Positions 28,984 to 39,631 of a DNA stretch of 48,661 nt are shown here, one piece after another. A program made the translations under genes and the position numbers. Origin of the DNA: Candidatus Desulfolinea nitratireducens (lineage in GTDB: Bacteria > Chloroflexota > Anaerolineae > Anaerolineales > Villigracilaceae); the NCBI GenBank assembly GCA_014382535.1, contig JACNJN010000110.1, positions 1 through 48,661 of the forward strand, written 5' to 3'. A model generated the notes under the pieces. The model did no database searches and had not been told where the DNA came from. It saw only the letters and a program-made list of their open reading frames with translations. How positions within the stretch are numbered: the stretch's first letter is position 1; the number at the start of each line of letters is the position of its first letter.

Positions 28984-29000
28984 ATATTAAGGCTACAGAC

Positions 29001-29031
29001 AAAAAAAGACGCCACCAAAAAGGTGACGTCT
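29001..29031 (-). terminator. Intrinsic terminator of rpoC
   Basis: On the minus strand AGACGTCACC, a five-base loop, GGTGGCGTCT, then seven T. It lies 20 bp past the rpoC stop. Confidence 0.88.
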
Positions 29032-29050
29032 CAAAATTGTGTGCGTTTTT

Positions 29051-32000
29051 CTACTCAGCAAGCGGGATATCTGTGGCGTCACCGGAAGGTTTTTCTTCTT
29101 CCGAAACCTCTTCTGGAACCTCACCAACTATTTCCAATTCGGGAACAAGCTCAGGGTCAAGTTCGGCTTCGGGATCCAGCTCCACTTCATCTTCCTCTTC
29201 TTCTTCGATTTCTGGCGAGAAACGTCCCGGTACAAAACCGGAGCCAGCCGGGATCAGCTTCCCGATAATGACATTCTCTTTCAGTCCATAGAGCGGATCT
29301 TCATCAGAGCCAATGGCTGCCTTCGCCAAAACCTTGATCGTATGCTGGAAGGATGCGGCGGAGAGGAACGAATCGGTATTCAGGGAGGCTTTGGTAATCC
29401 CCAAGAGAACGTTGACAAATCGAGCAGGCTTTTTGCCTTCTTCGAGCAGGGCTTCGTTTATCCGTTGAACATCAAGTCTGTCAACCACATCACCTGGCAA
29501 ATAGGCACTACCTTGCGGGTGCGTGATCTGGACTTTGGAGAGCATTTTGCGGATGATCACCTCAAAGTGCTTATCATGGATATTTTGACCTTGAGAGCGA
29601 TAAACCTGCTGAATTTCAGACATCAGGTATAACTGGCAGATATCAGCACCTTGAATGCGGAGAATACGATGTGGGTTCAATGAACCTTCAGTAAGAGGCT
29701 GCCCGGCTTCAACGTGGTCTCCATCAACGACCAACAGGCGCGCGGTGGTAGGGATATCGTATTCGCTTGCTTCGCGTTGCTCATATGAAACATGAATTGT
29801 TCTGCCCTCGATGCGGACTTTGCCGTCATTTTGAGCAGCAATGGTTGCTTCATCAAGAGTGGCCAGTATTTCGCCAGCTTTTATCTCGTCTTCTTCGCTA
29901 ATACCAATCTCCCAATCTTCAGGGATTTCGTAGGTATCACTGACCATTTCACTCTGTTCAACAGTGACAACACGCAGATCAGCATATTTTTCAGATTGAG
30001 AAAGACGTACCTTGCCACTGATTTCAGACATCACGGCTTCACCCTTCGGAGCCTTACGAGCTTCGAAAAGTTCTTCTACACGCGGTAGACCCGTTGTGAT
30101 ATCGCTGCCTGCCGCAACACCGCCCGTATGGAAGGTTCGTAGCGTTAGCTGTGTGCCTGGCTCACCAATAGACTGGGCAGCGACAATACCAACTGCCGAA
30201 CCAAGTTCAACCAATTTGCCACGCCCAAGATCGTTACCATAGCATTTAGCACAAACACCGTGCTGGAGTGCACAAGTCAGCGCGGAGCGAACGAAGATCT
30301 CTGGTAAATCGGCTTTCATGATCCTGCGACCCATCTCGTGCGTAATGGTATCGTTACGTTCGCCAATCACCTCACCTGTTTGCGGATCAATGATCCGGTC
30401 CGCCAGGAGACGGCTATGGATACGCGCACCAAGGGATTGCCCGGCAATATCATCATCTCTGCGGATGATGATGCCGTTGGTGGTTTCACAGTCATGTTCG
30501 TTGATAATTAAATCCTGTGCAACATCAACAAGTCGGCGGGTAAGATAACCGGCATCCGCTGTACGGAGTGCGGTATCTGCCAAACCTTTACGGGCACCAT
30601 GCGTTGAGATGAAGTATTCCAACGCAGTCAGGCCCTCACGGAAATTCGAGCGGATAGGAAGTGGGATAATACGTCCTGAGGGGTCAGCCATAAGACCGCG
30701 CATACCAGCCAACTGTGAAATTGGACCGAAACCACCTTTGGTTGCACCAGAGCTGGCCATCGTGGCAAGATTCCCGTTCGGGTCCATCACCTTGCGCACT
30801 TCGGCAGCAACCTCATTGGTAGTATCCTGCCAGATCTGGATAATGTGCTCATCCTGTTCCTGCTCGGTTAGCAAACCACGGCGGAAATCACGTTGAACCA
30901 GCTCCACAGCCTGAAGCGATTTCTGGATAATCTCTTCTTTCGCTTCAGGTACAGTAATATCAGAAATGGCTACGGTTACACCAGAGCGCATTGCATATTC
31001 AAAACCGATGCTCTTAATGCCATCCGCAACTGTTGTTGTCACATCCTGCCCGCAGATTTCGTAAACATCTGCAATCAGATCTTTTACACCGCCTTTATCC
31101 AGGGTTATATTTACGAATTGGATTTCAGGTGGCAAAATATTATTAAAGATCGCGCGCCCCACTGTGGTTATATGCATACGCGTTTCAGCTTCATCAAGGC
31201 GCGAGCCTTCCTTATCGTACCAACTAGTAATTCTCAGGTTGATATTGGTATGGACTTCAACCTTTTCAAGTTCAAAAGCAATAATCACTTCATCAATTGA
31301 ACCAAAGGTGCTCCCCTCACCCTTATAGTCAAAGGGATCTTCCATCGTCAGATAGTAAACACCCAGAACCATATCTTTCCCTGGGCTGATGATCGGTTCA
31401 CCATCCGCCGGTTTCAGCAGGTTCTTGGATGACAACATCAGCCGTCGCGCCTCTTCAACTGCTTTTTGCGAAAGCGGTACGTGAACTGCCATTTGGTCGC
31501 CGTCAAAATCGGCGTTGAAGGCAGTGGTGACCAAGGGATGCAATTGAATTGCGCTTCCTTCGATAATCAAGGGTTCGAAGGCCTGGATACCAAGACGATG
31601 CAAGGTTGGCGCACGGTTTAGAAGCACAGGACGGTCTTTAATAACATCTTCAAGGACTTCCCAAACCTCCTGACGATTGCGTTCAATCATTCGGCGAGCG
31701 CCCTTAACATTTGCAGCGTAACCTCTCTTGACCAAGCCTCCAATAACGAAGGGGCGGAAGAGTTCCAAGGCCATCTTTTTAGGAAGACCACATTGATATA
31801 ATTTTAATTTCGGTCCAACAACAATCACTGAGCGACCTGAATAATCAACACGCTTACCCAACAGGTTACGGCGGAAACGCCCCTTCTTGCCTTTGAGCAT
31901 ATCACTGAGTGATTTAAGTTCGCGACGACCACGTCTTGAGAGGGCTTTTCCACGCTGAGAGTTATCGATCAGCGAGTCAACAGCCTCTTGCAACATTCGC

Positions 32001-35384: not shown

Positions 35385-36278
35385 CTAATTGAGTACCGCA
35401 GCGAGTGGGGCCGGAGCGGCGATCTGTATGGATTGCCCAGCCGCCTGAGCTTGCTCTGCATCACGCGCCCATAGATAGAGACAGGTATGATAAGCAGTAG
35501 ATGTGTAGGTGCTGATCACAGTCGCGATCATGGCGAAGATGAAGAAGACCAGCAGTCCCAGCCCGATCCCCAGGACCAGGCCAAAGGTCACGGTTGGACC
35601 GCCAGCCAGGTAGATGATACTATAGCCAAGCCCGAACCCCAGGCCTGCTCCCGCCAAACCAAGCAGAAATCCGATCAACCCAGTCACTGCCTTCACCCCA
35701 ACGGTGCTGATTCCCACCAATAACAGATTTTCCTTGATGATCTGCGTTGCCCGTTTAATCCCATCCTTGAGATCGATATCTTCGATCACCATCGCGGGGA
35801 GAATGAGATATGCGGCCTCTGTCCAGACAGTTTCGATCAGGCCGGCGAGCATATTGCGGCCGCCTTTATTCCCCTTGCCTTTGACCATATTTTTTACTGT
35901 ATTTACGGCAGTGGATGCAGCAGCAAGGGTAGCGAGATCGAAGAGATCGCGTTTAACGATTGCCCAGGCCTTATCCATGCGCCCATCGCCTTCGGAGAGA
36001 TAGCCATAGATCAGATAGACCGTCATCGCTGAAAAAATATAGCTGACGATGAAATTGGCAAAGACCAGCAATGCTCCCGCAAGGACAATGATCGCCTGCC
36101 CAATAAAACCGCTATTACCAAAGGCCATGCCAAGGAGGGCAATCGGAATAATGCCGATCACAGAAACAACTGCCCCCGCAAAAAGGGTATAGATGGAGGG
36201 TTTGATCAGGTCTTTATCAGCAGAGGCCATCTGCCAGGCCTGTTTGAGAAATTGCCAACCGCGTGAGAATGATTCCAT
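35385..36278 (-). CDS. Gly-rich polytopic membrane protein (DUF6159-like)
   Basis: A 297-residue integral membrane protein with about six hydrophobic helices rich in Gly and Ala. The start MESFSRGWQFLKQAWQMASA (short amphipathic helix, then the first TM) fits DUF6159-type proteins. KGNKGGRNMLAGLIETVW in the middle is a cytosolic loop. Function unknown; no transport signature. Family name is from recalled sequence pattern, so moderately sure. Confidence 0.7.
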   Translation of the reverse strand: MESFSRGWQFLKQAWQMASADKDLIKPSIYTLFAGAVVSVIGIIPIALLGMAFGNSGFIGQAIIVLAGALLVFANFIVSYIFSAMTVYLIYGYLSEGDGRMDKAWAIVKRDLFDLATLAAASTAVNTVKNMVKGKGNKGGRNMLAGLIETVWTEAAYLILPAMVIEDIDLKDGIKRATQIIKENLLLVGISTVGVKAVTGLIGFLLGLAGAGLGFGLGYSIIYLAGGPTVTFGLVLGIGLGLLVFFIFAMIATVISTYTSTAYHTCLYLWARDAEQAQAAGQSIQIAAPAPLAAVLN

Positions 36279-36296
36279 GAGGGGACTCCTGTCGAC

Positions 36297-36911
36297 TTAC
36301 CAACTTGAAGGCTTGGAAAAACTGCCTTTTTCATCCGAGAGGGTATTGGGAAATAAACTTTTTGACAAAGCGCCTTTGCGAATATTTTTAATAAAATATG
36401 CTAAGGGTTGTAAAGCAACACTTGGGTTTTTCTGAGGATTAAGGATTCCAACAGGTTTATTTAACCCTTCTTTTACAAAGCGAATAGGCTCGAGGAGATC
36501 TGAATCATTTGAAACAATAACTGCTAATTCATATTTATTCATAAAACCGTCGATTAGCAAGTGAGTGGCAATATTAACATCTGATCCTTTTTCTTCGGTT
36601 TTTATAACTTTTGCAAAACCCGTTTGAGGTGGTGCAAGTCGCATGGTTACTGTATGAGACAAGAAAGTACCTTTAATGATTTCTAAATTGGGAATAGTTT
36701 TTAGTGCGCGCAAATATCTTTCTTGTCGAATTAGTTTTTCTGGATCATTAGGACGAGGAGTAACCAATGCTGTAAAATATTTAATCGTTGCAATTTCATC
36801 TCTCGGCAGGAGCAATTGACATAACTTGGCAATATTAAGCCAATGATAGGGAGTCTTCCTAATACAACCATAGTAAAAATTAAAACCGTCAATGTAAATA
36901 TTTGCTTTCAT
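36297..36911 (-). CDS. NYN-domain (LabA/DUF88-type) putative ribonuclease
   Basis: A 204-residue PIN-like NYN-domain protein. The acidic residues expected at the metal site are present: YIDGFNFYYG (Asp at 8), GSDVNIATHLLIDG (Asp near 112) and SNDSDLLEPI (Asp near 135). KTEEKGSDVN is the typical helix-capping motif. NYN proteins are RNA nucleases or RNA-processing factors. The gene is preceded by a clear sigma-70 promoter and a ~75-nt leader that folds strongly, with AAGGTGG as the ribosome binding site. It lies 18 bp upstream of the membrane-protein gene on the same strand, so both may be on one transcript. Confidence 0.88.
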   Translation of the reverse strand: MKANIYIDGFNFYYGCIRKTPYHWLNIAKLCQLLLPRDEIATIKYFTALVTPRPNDPEKLIRQERYLRALKTIPNLEIIKGTFLSHTVTMRLAPPQTGFAKVIKTEEKGSDVNIATHLLIDGFMNKYELAVIVSNDSDLLEPIRFVKEGLNKPVGILNPQKNPSVALQPLAYFIKNIRKGALSKSLFPNTLSDEKGSFSKPSSW

Positions 36912-36929
36912 AAAGCCACCTTAAACACA

Positions 36930-36987
36930 GAAGCCGCCTAAAGGCGGCTTCGCACCGGGTTCGTTACCTACTGCCGGGGGATACGCC
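36930..36987 (-). ncRNA. Structured leader RNA upstream of the NYN gene
   Basis: Read on the minus strand, the leader starts near 36985, folds CCGG...CCGG around a 15-nt loop (36974-36977 with 36955-36958), possibly closed by CGUA/UGCG. It then forms a 9-bp GC-rich hairpin (GAAGCCGCC-UUUA-GGCGGCUUC, 36951-36930). The CCGCCUU in this hairpin can also pair with the AAGGUGG ribosome binding site, and the 5' GAGGCG can pair with CGCCUU, so alternative folds exist. I do not recognise it as a known riboswitch or Rfam family. Confidence 0.55.
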
Positions 36988-36991
36988 TCTA

Positions 36992-37019
36992 TTATTACTA
37001 TATATGGTGGTATTGTCAA
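36992..37019 (-). promoter_or_regulatory. Sigma-70 promoter of the NYN gene
   Basis: Perfect TTGACA -35 (complement of 37014-37019), 16-bp spacer, and TAATAA(T) -10 (complement of 36991-36997). The predicted start is near 36985, directly before the structured leader. Confidence 0.7.
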
Positions 37020-37078
37020 GTTAAATTATTAATTGGTCAATAGATAAATTATTCGATTAATCTTGCATATATCACTAA

Positions 37079-39631
37079 TTATAGCAAACTTATCGGTCCA
37101 ACTTCAACCCGCCATCCTCGCAACTCTCTTCCCCTCAACAAGCTCTCCGGCTTTGGTCCACGCATAATAATTTGCCAGCGATAGATACCATCCACTTTGG
37201 AGAAAAAGCAGGGAACGGGGCCGATAATAGTAGTCTCTTTTCGGTTTTCAGTGGCCAGTAATTCTTCAAGGCTCGCCGCCATTATCCGTGTTTCTTCCTC
37301 AGCAGTGATGGGGTCTCGATGACGATACTCCAGACGCACCAGGTTTGCAAAAGGCGGATATCCCAGCCGCCGGCGATATTCCAGTTCGTGGACGTAAAAA
37401 TTGGCGTAATCATGCCTGGATGCGTGTTGGACCACATAATGCTCTGGCTCAAAACTTTGCAGCAGCACACGTCCGCCACGCTCGGAACGTCCCGCTCGGC
37501 CAGCGACTTGTGTCAGCGTCTGAAAGACTCGTTCCGCTGCAAAGGGATCAGGGAGATTTAATCCCACATCTGCCAATACCACGCCAACGAGTGTAACGAG
37601 GGGCAGATCCAGCCCTTTGGCGAGCATCTGCGTACCGACCAGCACATCTGCCCGGTGAGCGGTGAAATGGTTCAAAATCAGCTCGTGGGCGTCTTTGGTG
37701 CGGGTTGTATCCCAATCCCAGCGCAGCACACGGGCATCAGGGAAAAGGACATTGACTTCGTCCTCGACCCTTTCGCTCCCCAACCCATAAGCACGGATTT
37801 TTTCACTCTTACATTCGGGGCAGGTTTTGGGCATCTGACGAGTGTAATTGCATCGATGGCATTGCAAGCCCCCCCCTCTACCTCCCCCCCTCGTGGGGGA
37901 AGGATTTGACATATGCAAGGTGAGCGGAGTTTCGCAGCGAGGACATTTCAGGGTATGCCCGCAATCACGGCAGAAAATATAGGTCGCCGTACCACGTCGA
38001 TTGAGAAAGAGAATTACCTGCTCGTTGCGCGCCAGCGTTTGGGATAAGGCATCTTTGAGGGCGCGGCTGAAGATGCCACGGTTGCCGGATTTCAACTCGG
38101 TGCGCATATCGACGACCTGGACGGGAGGTAGTTCACGTTTAGCAATTCTCTCAGGGAGTTCGACGAGTGCAAAAGCGCCCTCACCCCCGCGTCGCTTCGC
38201 TTGCTCCCCCTCTCCCGCCTTGCGGGAGAGGGAAATTCGAGCGGAGCGAGAATGGGTGAGGGCGCTTTTTGCTTGATACATCAAATCAATCGGTGGTGTT
38301 GCCGATCCCAAGATGCAGACCGCGCCATTGATCTCAGCGTAGATTTGGGCAGCTTTTACTGCATCATAAAAAGGTGGCTCAGTTTGGTGATACGAGCCAT
38401 CATGAAATTCATCCAACACGATCAAACTCACCTTGGGCAGCGGTGCAAAAAGCGCACTGCGCGGTCCAATGACAACTTTCAGCGATCCTGCCCGTGCCCG
38501 CCGCCAGGTATCGTAACGTTCGCCTTGTGATAGTTTCGAATGGATCAAGCCCACCTGTCCTGGAAAACGGGCCAAAAGTCGACGTACTGTCTGCGGGGTA
38601 AGCGCGATCTCGGGAACAAGGATTAATGCCTGTCCGCCACGCCGAATGGCCTCCTGGGCAGCACGGATATATATTTCTGTTTTCCCTGAGCCAGTCACGC
38701 CATGCAAGAGAATTGGGCGAGTTTGCGATTCAGCGAAGGATGAATATACCTCCCTCATCGCTTCCTCCTGCGCGGGTGTCAATACCCAGGCATCGCTTTC
38801 TGCTTCTTCAACTTTTACCTTCTCAACCGGATCACGCCAAATCTCCGTCTCGCGCAGTGAGATCAGGTCTTTTTCAGCCAGAATCTGCAAATCAGCCAGG
38901 TTGCAACCGCTCTCAGCATAGACCCATGTCACCGCGATGGCATCCGCTTCACGCATCAGGAACTGGAGGGCTGCTGCGCGGCGTTTTTGTGTTGCTTCAG
39001 TTTTCCCCAGCGAGGACATGGATTCTTCAGCAAAATCTGGTGGGACAGCCAACTGTGCTGTGCGAATAAATTTTGGTCGTACCTTTGGCGCGGGTAAAAC
39101 AGACTTGCTGGAAAGAATGCCGCGACGTACCAATGCCTGCGCCGATTGACGCCAATCGACATGTTTGAAGTGACGATCAATTTGTCGGCCGCGCAGTGAG
39201 CCGCATTTTTGAAGAAGGCTTAGCAAACGTTTTTGAATTTTTGAAAACTCGATAGGTGATTCCCCAACCCCCATTTCCCAATCCCGATTCCCAAACTCTG
39301 TATCCGCTTGCTGGCTTAATCCGCTCGGCAAGATCAACCCCACCATTGCGGCGAGGGGATTTAAGGTTTGCTCCGCCATTCTCTCTGCAAGCGCAATTTG
39401 TGCGGGGGTAAGCACAGGCAACGGATCAAGCAAGTCTACAACGGATTTTGTAACAGCAACGGAGGGTTTATCCAAAAAGCGTAATATTACACCTTGAACA
39501 ATCTGATTATTAAAGGGGATGGTTACCAGAGTCCCAATACCAACTTTTCCCTCCAGCTCAGGGGGCAACTGATAATCAAAAACCCCGCTGATAGCTGGGA
39601 TATTAACAGAAATTTGGACAAAGGTAGTCAT
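37079..39631 (-). CDS. priA: Primosomal protein N' (replication restart helicase PriA)
   Basis: About 850 residues from ATG 39631 (MTTFVQISVNIPAISGVFDY), the usual PriA start. Order: DNA-binding domain, winged helix, helicase with Walker A (GVTGSGKTEIYIRA, about residue 310) and a DExH box reading DEFH where PriA normally has DEEH, then the zinc region (CRDCGHTLKCPRC...CHRCNY...CPECK), then RecA2 and the C-terminal domain. It reloads the replisome at stalled forks. Three stretches unlike PriA homologues are encoded by repeat-like DNA without breaking the frame: about 39258-39296, 38169-38272 and 37871-37908. Confidence 0.93.
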   Translation of the reverse strand: MTTFVQISVNIPAISGVFDYQLPPELEGKVGIGTLVTIPFNNQIVQGVILRFLDKPSVAVTKSVVDLLDPLPVLTPAQIALAERMAEQTLNPLAAMVGLILPSGLSQQADTEFGNRDWEMGVGESPIEFSKIQKRLLSLLQKCGSLRGRQIDRHFKHVDWRQSAQALVRRGILSSKSVLPAPKVRPKFIRTAQLAVPPDFAEESMSSLGKTEATQKRRAAALQFLMREADAIAVTWVYAESGCNLADLQILAEKDLISLRETEIWRDPVEKVKVEEAESDAWVLTPAQEEAMREVYSSFAESQTRPILLHGVTGSGKTEIYIRAAQEAIRRGGQALILVPEIALTPQTVRRLLARFPGQVGLIHSKLSQGERYDTWRRARAGSLKVVIGPRSALFAPLPKVSLIVLDEFHDGSYHQTEPPFYDAVKAAQIYAEINGAVCILGSATPPIDLMYQAKSALTHSRSARISLSRKAGEGEQAKRRGGEGAFALVELPERIAKRELPPVQVVDMRTELKSGNRGIFSRALKDALSQTLARNEQVILFLNRRGTATYIFCRDCGHTLKCPRCETPLTLHMSNPSPTRGGGRGGGLQCHRCNYTRQMPKTCPECKSEKIRAYGLGSERVEDEVNVLFPDARVLRWDWDTTRTKDAHELILNHFTAHRADVLVGTQMLAKGLDLPLVTLVGVVLADVGLNLPDPFAAERVFQTLTQVAGRAGRSERGGRVLLQSFEPEHYVVQHASRHDYANFYVHELEYRRRLGYPPFANLVRLEYRHRDPITAEEETRIMAASLEELLATENRKETTIIGPVPCFFSKVDGIYRWQIIMRGPKPESLLRGRELRGWRVEVGPISLL
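37871..37908. repeat. C/G-run repeat inserted in the priA zinc region
   Basis: C-tracts and G-tracts (CCCCCCC TCTACCTCC, then CTCGTGGGGGAAGG) encode SNPSPTRGGGRGGG between the zinc-binding Cys pairs. PriA homologues have a short loop there. It looks like a partial palindromic dispersed repeat. Confidence 0.6.
38169..38272. repeat. 104-bp palindromic element inserted in frame in priA
   Basis: The outer arms GCAAAAGCGCCCTCACCC (38169-38186) and GGGTGAGGGCGCTTTTTGC (38254-38272) match apart from one extra T. An inner stem CCCTCTCCCGC/GCGGGAGAGGG is at 38208-38218 and 38222-38232. It encodes an Arg/Gly-rich patch (RISLSRKAGEGEQAKRRGGE) absent from typical PriA. The frame is kept. Confidence 0.8.
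39258..39296. repeat. Short A/C-rich direct-repeat patch in priA
   Basis: Near-repeats ATTCCCCAACCCCC, ATTTCCCAATCCCG and ATTCCCAAA encode EFGNRDWEMGVGES. The composition differs from the surrounding coding DNA. It is weaker evidence than the 38169 element. Confidence 0.5.

Follow-up and report, generated by a model that had tools for sequence, protein, structure and literature searches.

A NYN-domain RNase that usually travels with a two-hairpin RNA, from Chloroflexi to E. coli plasmids, suggests an undescribed mobile toxin-antitoxin or phage-defence pair

In the 48,661-nucleotide stretch of Candidatus Desulfolinea nitratireducens DNA analysed here (the window), a gene for a NYN-domain RNase is preceded by a compact structured RNA. 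This raises the question of whether the RNA merely serves the messenger on which it lies or is a gene in its own right, with the RNase as its partner. A sequence-only reading of the window had offered three roles for it, namely a self-regulatory substrate, a riboswitch or, as speculation, an RNA partner of the protein loosely like that of type III toxin-antitoxin pairs.

The locus in the window and its protein

On the minus strand a promoter-like site is followed by hairpin 1, hairpin 2 and the NYN start codon (Table 1). Of all promoter-like matches within 36200-37200 this site is the best, so that the promoter which the sequence-only reading had placed directly ahead of the RNA holds as a prediction; the CCGG/CCGG fold and the GC hairpin that it had described between promoter and start codon are present in the sequence. 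We take the AGUA/GAA internal loop of hairpin 1 to be a loop-E motif. Hairpin 2 with its tail scores as terminator-like, with a weak U run, and the RNA is a single unit with no tandem repeat. In the minimum-energy fold of the 85-nt leader the 5' end pairs with GGUGGCUUU, the stretch running from the ribosome binding site as far as the NYN start codon; by eye, the 5' end of the RNA and its spacer to the ATG are variable among relatives. Taken alone, the window leader has a folding stability that is modestly unusual: the 85-nt leader has a z of -0.88, with 37 of 200 shuffles equally stable, and its 67-nt core a z of -2.1, with 8 of 300 shuffles as stable. Rfam yielded no match in the window at the gathering score, and a further Rfam search gave sub-threshold matches only. 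A primosomal helicase gene (priA), as read from the ORFs, lies upstream of the unit, and the next gene downstream of the unit encodes a membrane protein whose Pfam matches are all sub-threshold.

Table 1. Coordinates of the RNA-NYN locus in the window
Feature	Position	Strand	Description
NYN-domain RNase gene	36297-36911	(-)	204-aa ORF; HEC-09-like (PADLOC), PHROG 7929
Two-hairpin RNA	36920-36988	(-)	match to model R1, 74.1 bits; itself among R1's 18 building sequences
Hairpin 1	36955-36977	(-)	CCGG/CCGG stem, AGUA + GAA internal loop, GUAA tetraloop, G-C closing
Hairpin 2	36930-36951	(-)	9-bp GC-rich stem, UUUA loop, UGUGUUU after; terminator-like
Promoter-like site of the RNA	36991-37019	(-)	TTGACA-17-AATAAT, 11/12

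The protein matches PF01936 (NYN) at 29.6 bits against a curated cut-off of 24.2. A Pfam scan at E 0.01 returned NYN only, with no ToxN/AbiQ and no HEPN (Abi_2), while NCBIfam gave no match to the window protein and a PDB sequence search with it gave none at E 1. Predicted by AlphaFold from 19 sequences, the structure reached a pLDDT of 93.4 (36.3 from two sequences), and this model resembles 2qip (Z 17.4, rmsd 2.9 over 156 residues) and the NYN domain of MARF1 (Z 16.9, rmsd 2.5 over 146 residues); ToxN is absent among the fold matches listed, an absence that carries no evidential weight. The acidic residues that had been read as intact are indeed so, in that D8, E107, D111, D136 and D138 are invariant in alignments of 14 and of 19 relatives. 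We presume these residues to have the catalytic role known from the PIN/NYN literature. The protein also matches the PADLOC model HEC-09 (PDLC04163) over residues 4-204 (E 1.5e-40, 137 bits; PADLOC threshold not given), as does a relative, L016, at 285 bits, and it matches PHROG 7929, a family without an assigned function. HEC stands for Hma-embedded candidate in the accessible text of PMC12988326, and one Pseudomonas survey, according to the accessible part of that report, saw HEC-09 correlate with susceptibility to phages and not with resistance (PMC12447246).

A conserved RNA beside the NYN gene

The covariance model R1 was built from 18 two-hairpin RNAs, and our RNA models hold nested pairs only. 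With R1, the covariance search that the sequence-only reading had proposed found the RNA beside the NYN gene in all 27 held-out loci of the same phylum (E 2e-4 or better), five of which carry two tandem copies. In all but four divergent loci among those first read, the order is promoter, C run, hairpin 1, a short linker that is often GCGA, hairpin 2, mostly a U-rich tail, and the NYN start; L023, a distant relative, fits this layout loosely, and the relatives L030 and L031 are Chloroflexi. A promoter match of 10-12/12 lies upstream on the NYN strand in 23 of the 27 related loci scanned, and in the remaining four (L020, L021, L022 and L029) a match of 11-12/12 lies on the opposite strand. Beyond the window RNA, its own genome gave one weak R1 match among the matches listed (G000:C130, 24.9 bits), which is probably chance. 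Another weak match within the window, at 28998-29074 (-) with 19.5 bits, falls at the 3' end of an rpoC-like ORF and is probably chance as well.

Covariation was measured on 31 RNAs from 26 of the 27 held-out loci, fitted to the model's own structure, which biases the result in its favour; L059, nearly identical to L058, was left out of the comparative set. Two-sided changes occur in 13 of the 15 pairs, 89.0% of cells pair, and 47 compensatory cells were observed against 13.0 expected. All five measures were reached in 0 of 500 shuffles, and shifted partner columns give at most 14 compensatory cells against the 47 of the true register. In hairpin 2, 98.6% of cells pair and eight of nine pairs have two-sided changes. 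In 856 of 858 comparisons with swapped arms its own arms pair at least as well, and in 683 of these they pair strictly better. Hairpin 1 is weaker, with 79.3% and 64.5% of cells pairing in its two helices, partly because its arms are poorly aligned across groups; mean z against shuffles in the held-out alignment is -2.4 for hairpin 1 and -5.1 for hairpin 2. The tetraloop of hairpin 1 is UUCG in many relatives, and two pairs of hairpin 2 in the window RNA differ on both sides from those of close relatives. On this comparative evidence the two-hairpin structure is under selection, and we regard the structure of the window RNA as real since it recurs with compensatory changes beside relatives of the NYN gene.

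The NYN gene itself is patchy. Six-frame protein searches found it in 22 of 150 same-family genomes (E 1e-3), in none of eight other members of the genus, and, at E 1e-10, in 72 of 400 genomes sampled from the phylum. The matches in the 400 genomes were merged into 101 places, of which 11 belong to another NYN type, leaving 90 of the window type. The RNA, as modelled by R1 or R2, lies within 400 nt at 77 of these 90, six of which (L002, L008, L021, L149, L150 and L151) are in the model-building sets, and at five further places a two-hairpin RNA, which folds accordingly, was spotted by eye; the 77 and 5 are a hand tally. Among the other eight are L135, where the NYN gene has a premature stop and the RNA is by eye only a remnant, and L140, where the NYN ORF looks intact and no adjoining RNA was seen. 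Two more are in genome G302 (L187 and L188), where a divergent R2 RNA lies 2.3-2.6 kb from both NYN matches with other sequence between, and the rest are two at contig starts and two gene fragments. At the 11 loci of the second NYN type (L156-L166, 29-30% identity), for which "Dehalococcoidia-type" is our own label and not a tool assignment, neither R1 nor R2 gave a hit. An absence of conservation and covariation with the gene, which the sequence-only reading had named as the outcome that should sink its proposal, is clearly not what these comparisons returned.

Orientation, solitary copies and mobility

From an R1 scan of the 400 phylum genomes with strict filters we used the best 108 among the matches listed (to 24.4 bits, E ~8e-5). 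Sixty-eight of these adjoin a NYN gene, 66 upstream on the same strand and two downstream on the opposite strand. In one subfamily the RNA is divergent and has its own promoter (L021, L022, L029, L039, L149, L150 and L151, all in the R2 building set); by eye it is divergent in L020 and L141 also, and L216 is an independent R2 hit. A convergent RNA lies downstream of the gene in a Mycobacterium prophage (L032) and a Paenarthrobacter plasmid (L034), and in three viral contigs nearly identical in sequence to L032. Two whole RNA copies occur in L057, L060, L075, L076, L078 and L129, and a second copy follows the NYN gene in L016, L017 and L028. The conserved structure, its link to the NYN gene in several orientations, and the tandem copies or repeats of some relatives are all directly seen. 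While the window RNA lies in the 5' untranslated region of its NYN gene, RNAs of relatives are also divergent, convergent or solitary, which contradicts a purely cis role. Of the roles first offered, that of a type III-like RNA partner gains support from these comparative data, and that of riboswitch or leader fits them poorly.

The same scan placed 40 of the best 108 hits listed more than 400 nt from any listed NYN gene, and 24 of these RNA-only loci were inspected. The NYN profile picked up pieces of the gene in just two of them, L125 and L126, and a clear NYN-like 5' stretch stands just after the RNA in L081, L087, L125 and L126 (0/40 shuffles each), with borderline stretches in L112 (2/40) and L121 (4/40). 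In L125 the frame stays open, so that it may be a diverged NYN gene, and L081, L087 and L126 retain the RNA with mere pieces of the gene. No NYN trace follows the RNA directly in the other 18 of the 24, so the RNA may have another role. A scatter of the hairpin over unrelated loci, which the sequence-only reading had counted against itself, is thus found in part, given the 40 hits that lack a listed NYN gene, but four of the 24 inspected keep a NYN 5' stretch and two more are borderline. An antitoxin is expected to outlast its toxin; the solitary RNAs of the genera g73 and g56 need a separate explanation. Five NYN matches contain in-frame stops, for which assembly errors are possible; an R1 hit lies beside four of them (G361, G158:C4, G274 and G350:C7) and not beside the fifth (G271, L135).

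Some solitary RNAs recur, by eye, with similar flanks and no NYN nearby, each set covering three genomes of one genus: L109, L116 and L119 in g73, and L113, L120 and L124 in g56. Another set of solitary RNAs with similar flanks is formed by L110, L112 and L117 (g73). In L111 a solitary RNA (957-1024) lies directly upstream of a small ORF starting MQPVTIDQIAEQLKRLP, which we take to resemble a type II antitoxin.

Among plasmid and phage records, tblastn matched the protein in 444 of the former and 3 of the latter, and 20 of these records (L032-L051) were inspected. A model hit lies beside the gene in five (L033, L036, L032, L034 and L039), of which L032, L034 and L039 are in the model-building sets and L033 and L036 are not. 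In 12 of the 20 a hairpin RNA or hairpin array is visible by eye only, and L040, L043 and L051 have neither an R1 or R2 hit nor an RNA visible by eye. Model-supported relatives come from Spirochaetota, Actinomycetota (one a Mycobacterium phage), Pseudomonadota and Deinococcota, and in an Acidobacteriota relative (L038) the RNA is seen by eye only. Plasmids of about 4.5 kb from E. coli (L037) and Klebsiella (L048) carry 33-nt hairpin repeats, a terminator and then the NYN gene; strong-looking terminators were noted by eye in L037, L041, L042 and L044-L049. Among 5426 complete E. coli genomes, 10 carry the L037-type plasmid family and 13 the L041 family, in each case on plasmids only. Rfam at the gathering score gave three matches in 20 related loci, all of them RNAI of plasmid origins. 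In the Cupriavidus necator plasmid pBB2 (L043:1399-2421) the NYN domain lies in an ORF with a longer C-terminus annotated as an Xre/MbcA/ParS toxin-binding antitoxin, and a switch there from RNA to protein control is possible. In three Klebsiella plasmid records (H54, H55 and H67) the NYN protein bears the annotation 6-hydroxy-3-succinoylpyridine 3-monooxygenase HspA, which is probably wrong.

Viral contigs searched with the single window protein gave no match, and an alignment search of IMG/VR gave 35 loci encoding relatives. R1 or R2 matches 14 of these 35 with an E of at most 0.01, the match in L222 overlapping the gene end. One two-hairpin detector proved unusable: it accepted 31 of 33 viral NYN upstream regions, but many shuffles (126 of 165) and control ORFs (61 of 73) passed it too. 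After that failure a stricter one was picked, which 23 of the 33 regions passed, compared with 12 of 330 shuffles and 4 of 72 control ORFs; L202, L203 and L204 among its 23 are probably chance, because their RNA lies downstream.

Direct repeats of 41-143 bp with 79-96% identity flank 11 of 85 units, a count that leaves out L148 (a twelfth positive among 86, due to an indexing artefact where its contig ends), contains some near-duplicate units and includes L136 and L146, whose repeats do not closely abut the unit; no such repeats turned up in 200 mismatched flanks or at 300 random window positions. Empty sites are present in two congeners, where the end of priA lies ~45 nt (L193) or ~95 nt (L190) from the membrane gene with no NYN between; the priA match of L190 is incomplete, covering 83 residues at 53% where the contig ends. 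The congener loci L190, L191 and L193 gave no R1 hits. Judged by the flank duplications and empty sites, the RNA-NYN unit is mobile; these signs of mobility are directly seen, as is the NYN fold with its conserved acidic residues. In the congener L191 an ORF at 718-1500 fills the gap where the window has its NYN unit. We take this ORF to resemble a Y1 (REP-associated) transposase, and the gap is possibly an insertion hot spot.

An RNA partner for the RNase, its rivals and known systems

We consider it probable that the locus is a two-component RNA-protein module whose RNA acts in trans as the partner, and likely the inhibitor, of the NYN protein. The promoter would yield a short two-hairpin RNA, and part of transcription would pass hairpin 2 into the RNase gene, with much RNA and little RNase being made. 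The RNA would bind in trans and, in the manner of type III toxin-antitoxin systems, most likely keep the RNase from acting. Loss of the RNA supply, for instance through plasmid or gene loss or phage transcription shut-off, would free the RNase to cut cellular or phage RNA, and the pair would spread as a compact cassette, either selfish or defensive. What we infer here is that the RNA is transcribed with read-through into the gene, that the protein is an active RNase which the RNA binds and inhibits, that this RNase is toxic, and what triggers its release; an RNA-neutralised RNase is suggested by the locus anatomy, the type III and AbiF analogies, and the loci that keep the RNA without an intact gene. 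In favour of the module speak the association with the gene (27/27 and 77/90), the covariation (0/500), the layouts that suit action in trans, the plasmid arrays, the RNA kept where the gene is damaged, the fold and residues, the mobility and the status as a defence candidate. It is weakened by the intact-looking NYN ORF of L140 with no RNA and the distant RNA of G302, by the single RNA and weak U tract of the window, by the plasmid relatives L040, L043 and L051, which gave no R1 or R2 hit, by the reliance on the eye in 12 of the 20 plasmid and phage records inspected, by the 18 of 24 RNA-only loci with no NYN trace, and by the tie of HEC-09 to susceptibility in the accessible part of PMC12447246.

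Alternatively, the RNA might activate, scaffold or guide the nuclease as a defence ribonucleoprotein with no silencing, a reading that we hold to be unlikely: the association, the free orientation and the PADLOC candidate status fit it equally well, and solitary RNAs exist, but we noticed no variable segment resembling a guide, each of the two hairpins is internally paired and constant in form, and the tandem repeats with terminator and the loci with RNA kept and gene broken better suit an antitoxin. The absence of a noticed variable segment also speaks against a guide RNA as such, and a type I antisense RNA was set aside because there is no overlap between the divergent RNAs and the NYN gene, while the hairpin arms drift with compensatory changes. 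A cis-acting leader of the NYN mRNA, be it an attenuator, a riboswitch or an autoregulatory cleavage site, would account for the same-strand upstream position in 66 of the 68 adjacent hits among the best 108 listed and for the terminator-like hairpin 2, but divergent, convergent, distant and solitary copies are not leaders, L004 has ~90 nt extra between RNA and ATG, and tandem copies occur besides; we set this reading aside as quite improbable.

Very improbable, in our estimate, is that the RNA is chiefly a substrate with a cellular function of its own and the NYN protein its dedicated processing enzyme. In its favour are the solitary RNAs whose flanks look alike, by eye, across several genomes of a single genus, and the processing by type III toxins of their own RNA that is described in PMC5086642, but the patchy mobile distribution better suits an addiction or defence cassette. 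Chance hairpins beside a promoter deserve next to no credence: the window RNA by itself folds only modestly better than shuffles, but the covariation and the association in every held-out locus refute chance.

If the RNA is indeed the partner of the RNase, the implications are wider. It seems to us slightly on the probable side that the pair is a new toxin-antitoxin or abortive-infection class, in which a NYN (PIN-like) RNase, unlike the ToxN or HEPN fold, would be neutralised by a two-hairpin RNA that is the missing half of HEC-09, spread over six named phyla (Acidobacteriota by eye) as its own mobile cassette. RNA antitoxins that directly silence RNases are few, namely those of type III and AbiF. 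A further nuclease fold would mean convergent evolution of RNA-controlled RNases, and a defence candidate catalogued as a single gene would gain a second component. Because some members sit on small native plasmids of E. coli, direct testing in E. coli K-12 is feasible. A literature search found no RNA beside NYN in titles and opening abstracts, which is weak evidence of absence as bioRxiv and most subscription journals were outside its scope, and NYN is not mentioned in the accessible part of PMC13092281.

Several known systems invite comparison. Some restriction-modification units have long target duplications, in the order of 100 bp according to the accessible part of PMC3874152, which the diverged repeats at the flanks recall, whereas the cargo here is an RNA gene and a NYN gene. 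The HEC-09 model is matched by the window protein and by L016 but covers the protein alone, and we saw no mention of an RNA. The NYN-domain RNases LabA-like and MARF1 share the fold, as far as the predicted structure goes (the 2qip and MARF1 matches above). To our knowledge no adjoining partner RNA is known for these. AbiF and its ncRNA RCd22 in C. difficile likewise set a phage-linked RNase-type protein beside an ncRNA, one that in the accessible text has two motifs and acts as antitoxin in trans, and the HEPN family of AbiF is there proposed as the ancestor of Cas13 (PMC12373285); AbiF is, however, a HEPN protein where ours is NYN, and our RNAs match no Rfam family at the gathering score. 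In type III toxin-antitoxin systems the protein differs, ours being NYN/PIN-like with no ToxN match in Pfam, and so does the RNA, which here is two plain hairpins, mostly in one copy and sometimes divergent or convergent, so that neutralisation would follow by analogy. The likeness lies in a short RNA gene ahead of an RNase-type gene, as the accessible text on ToxIN, CptIN and TenpIN describes (PMC5086642), in the tandem RNA repeats and terminator of the relatives L037 and L048, and in a patchy spread over plasmids and phages.
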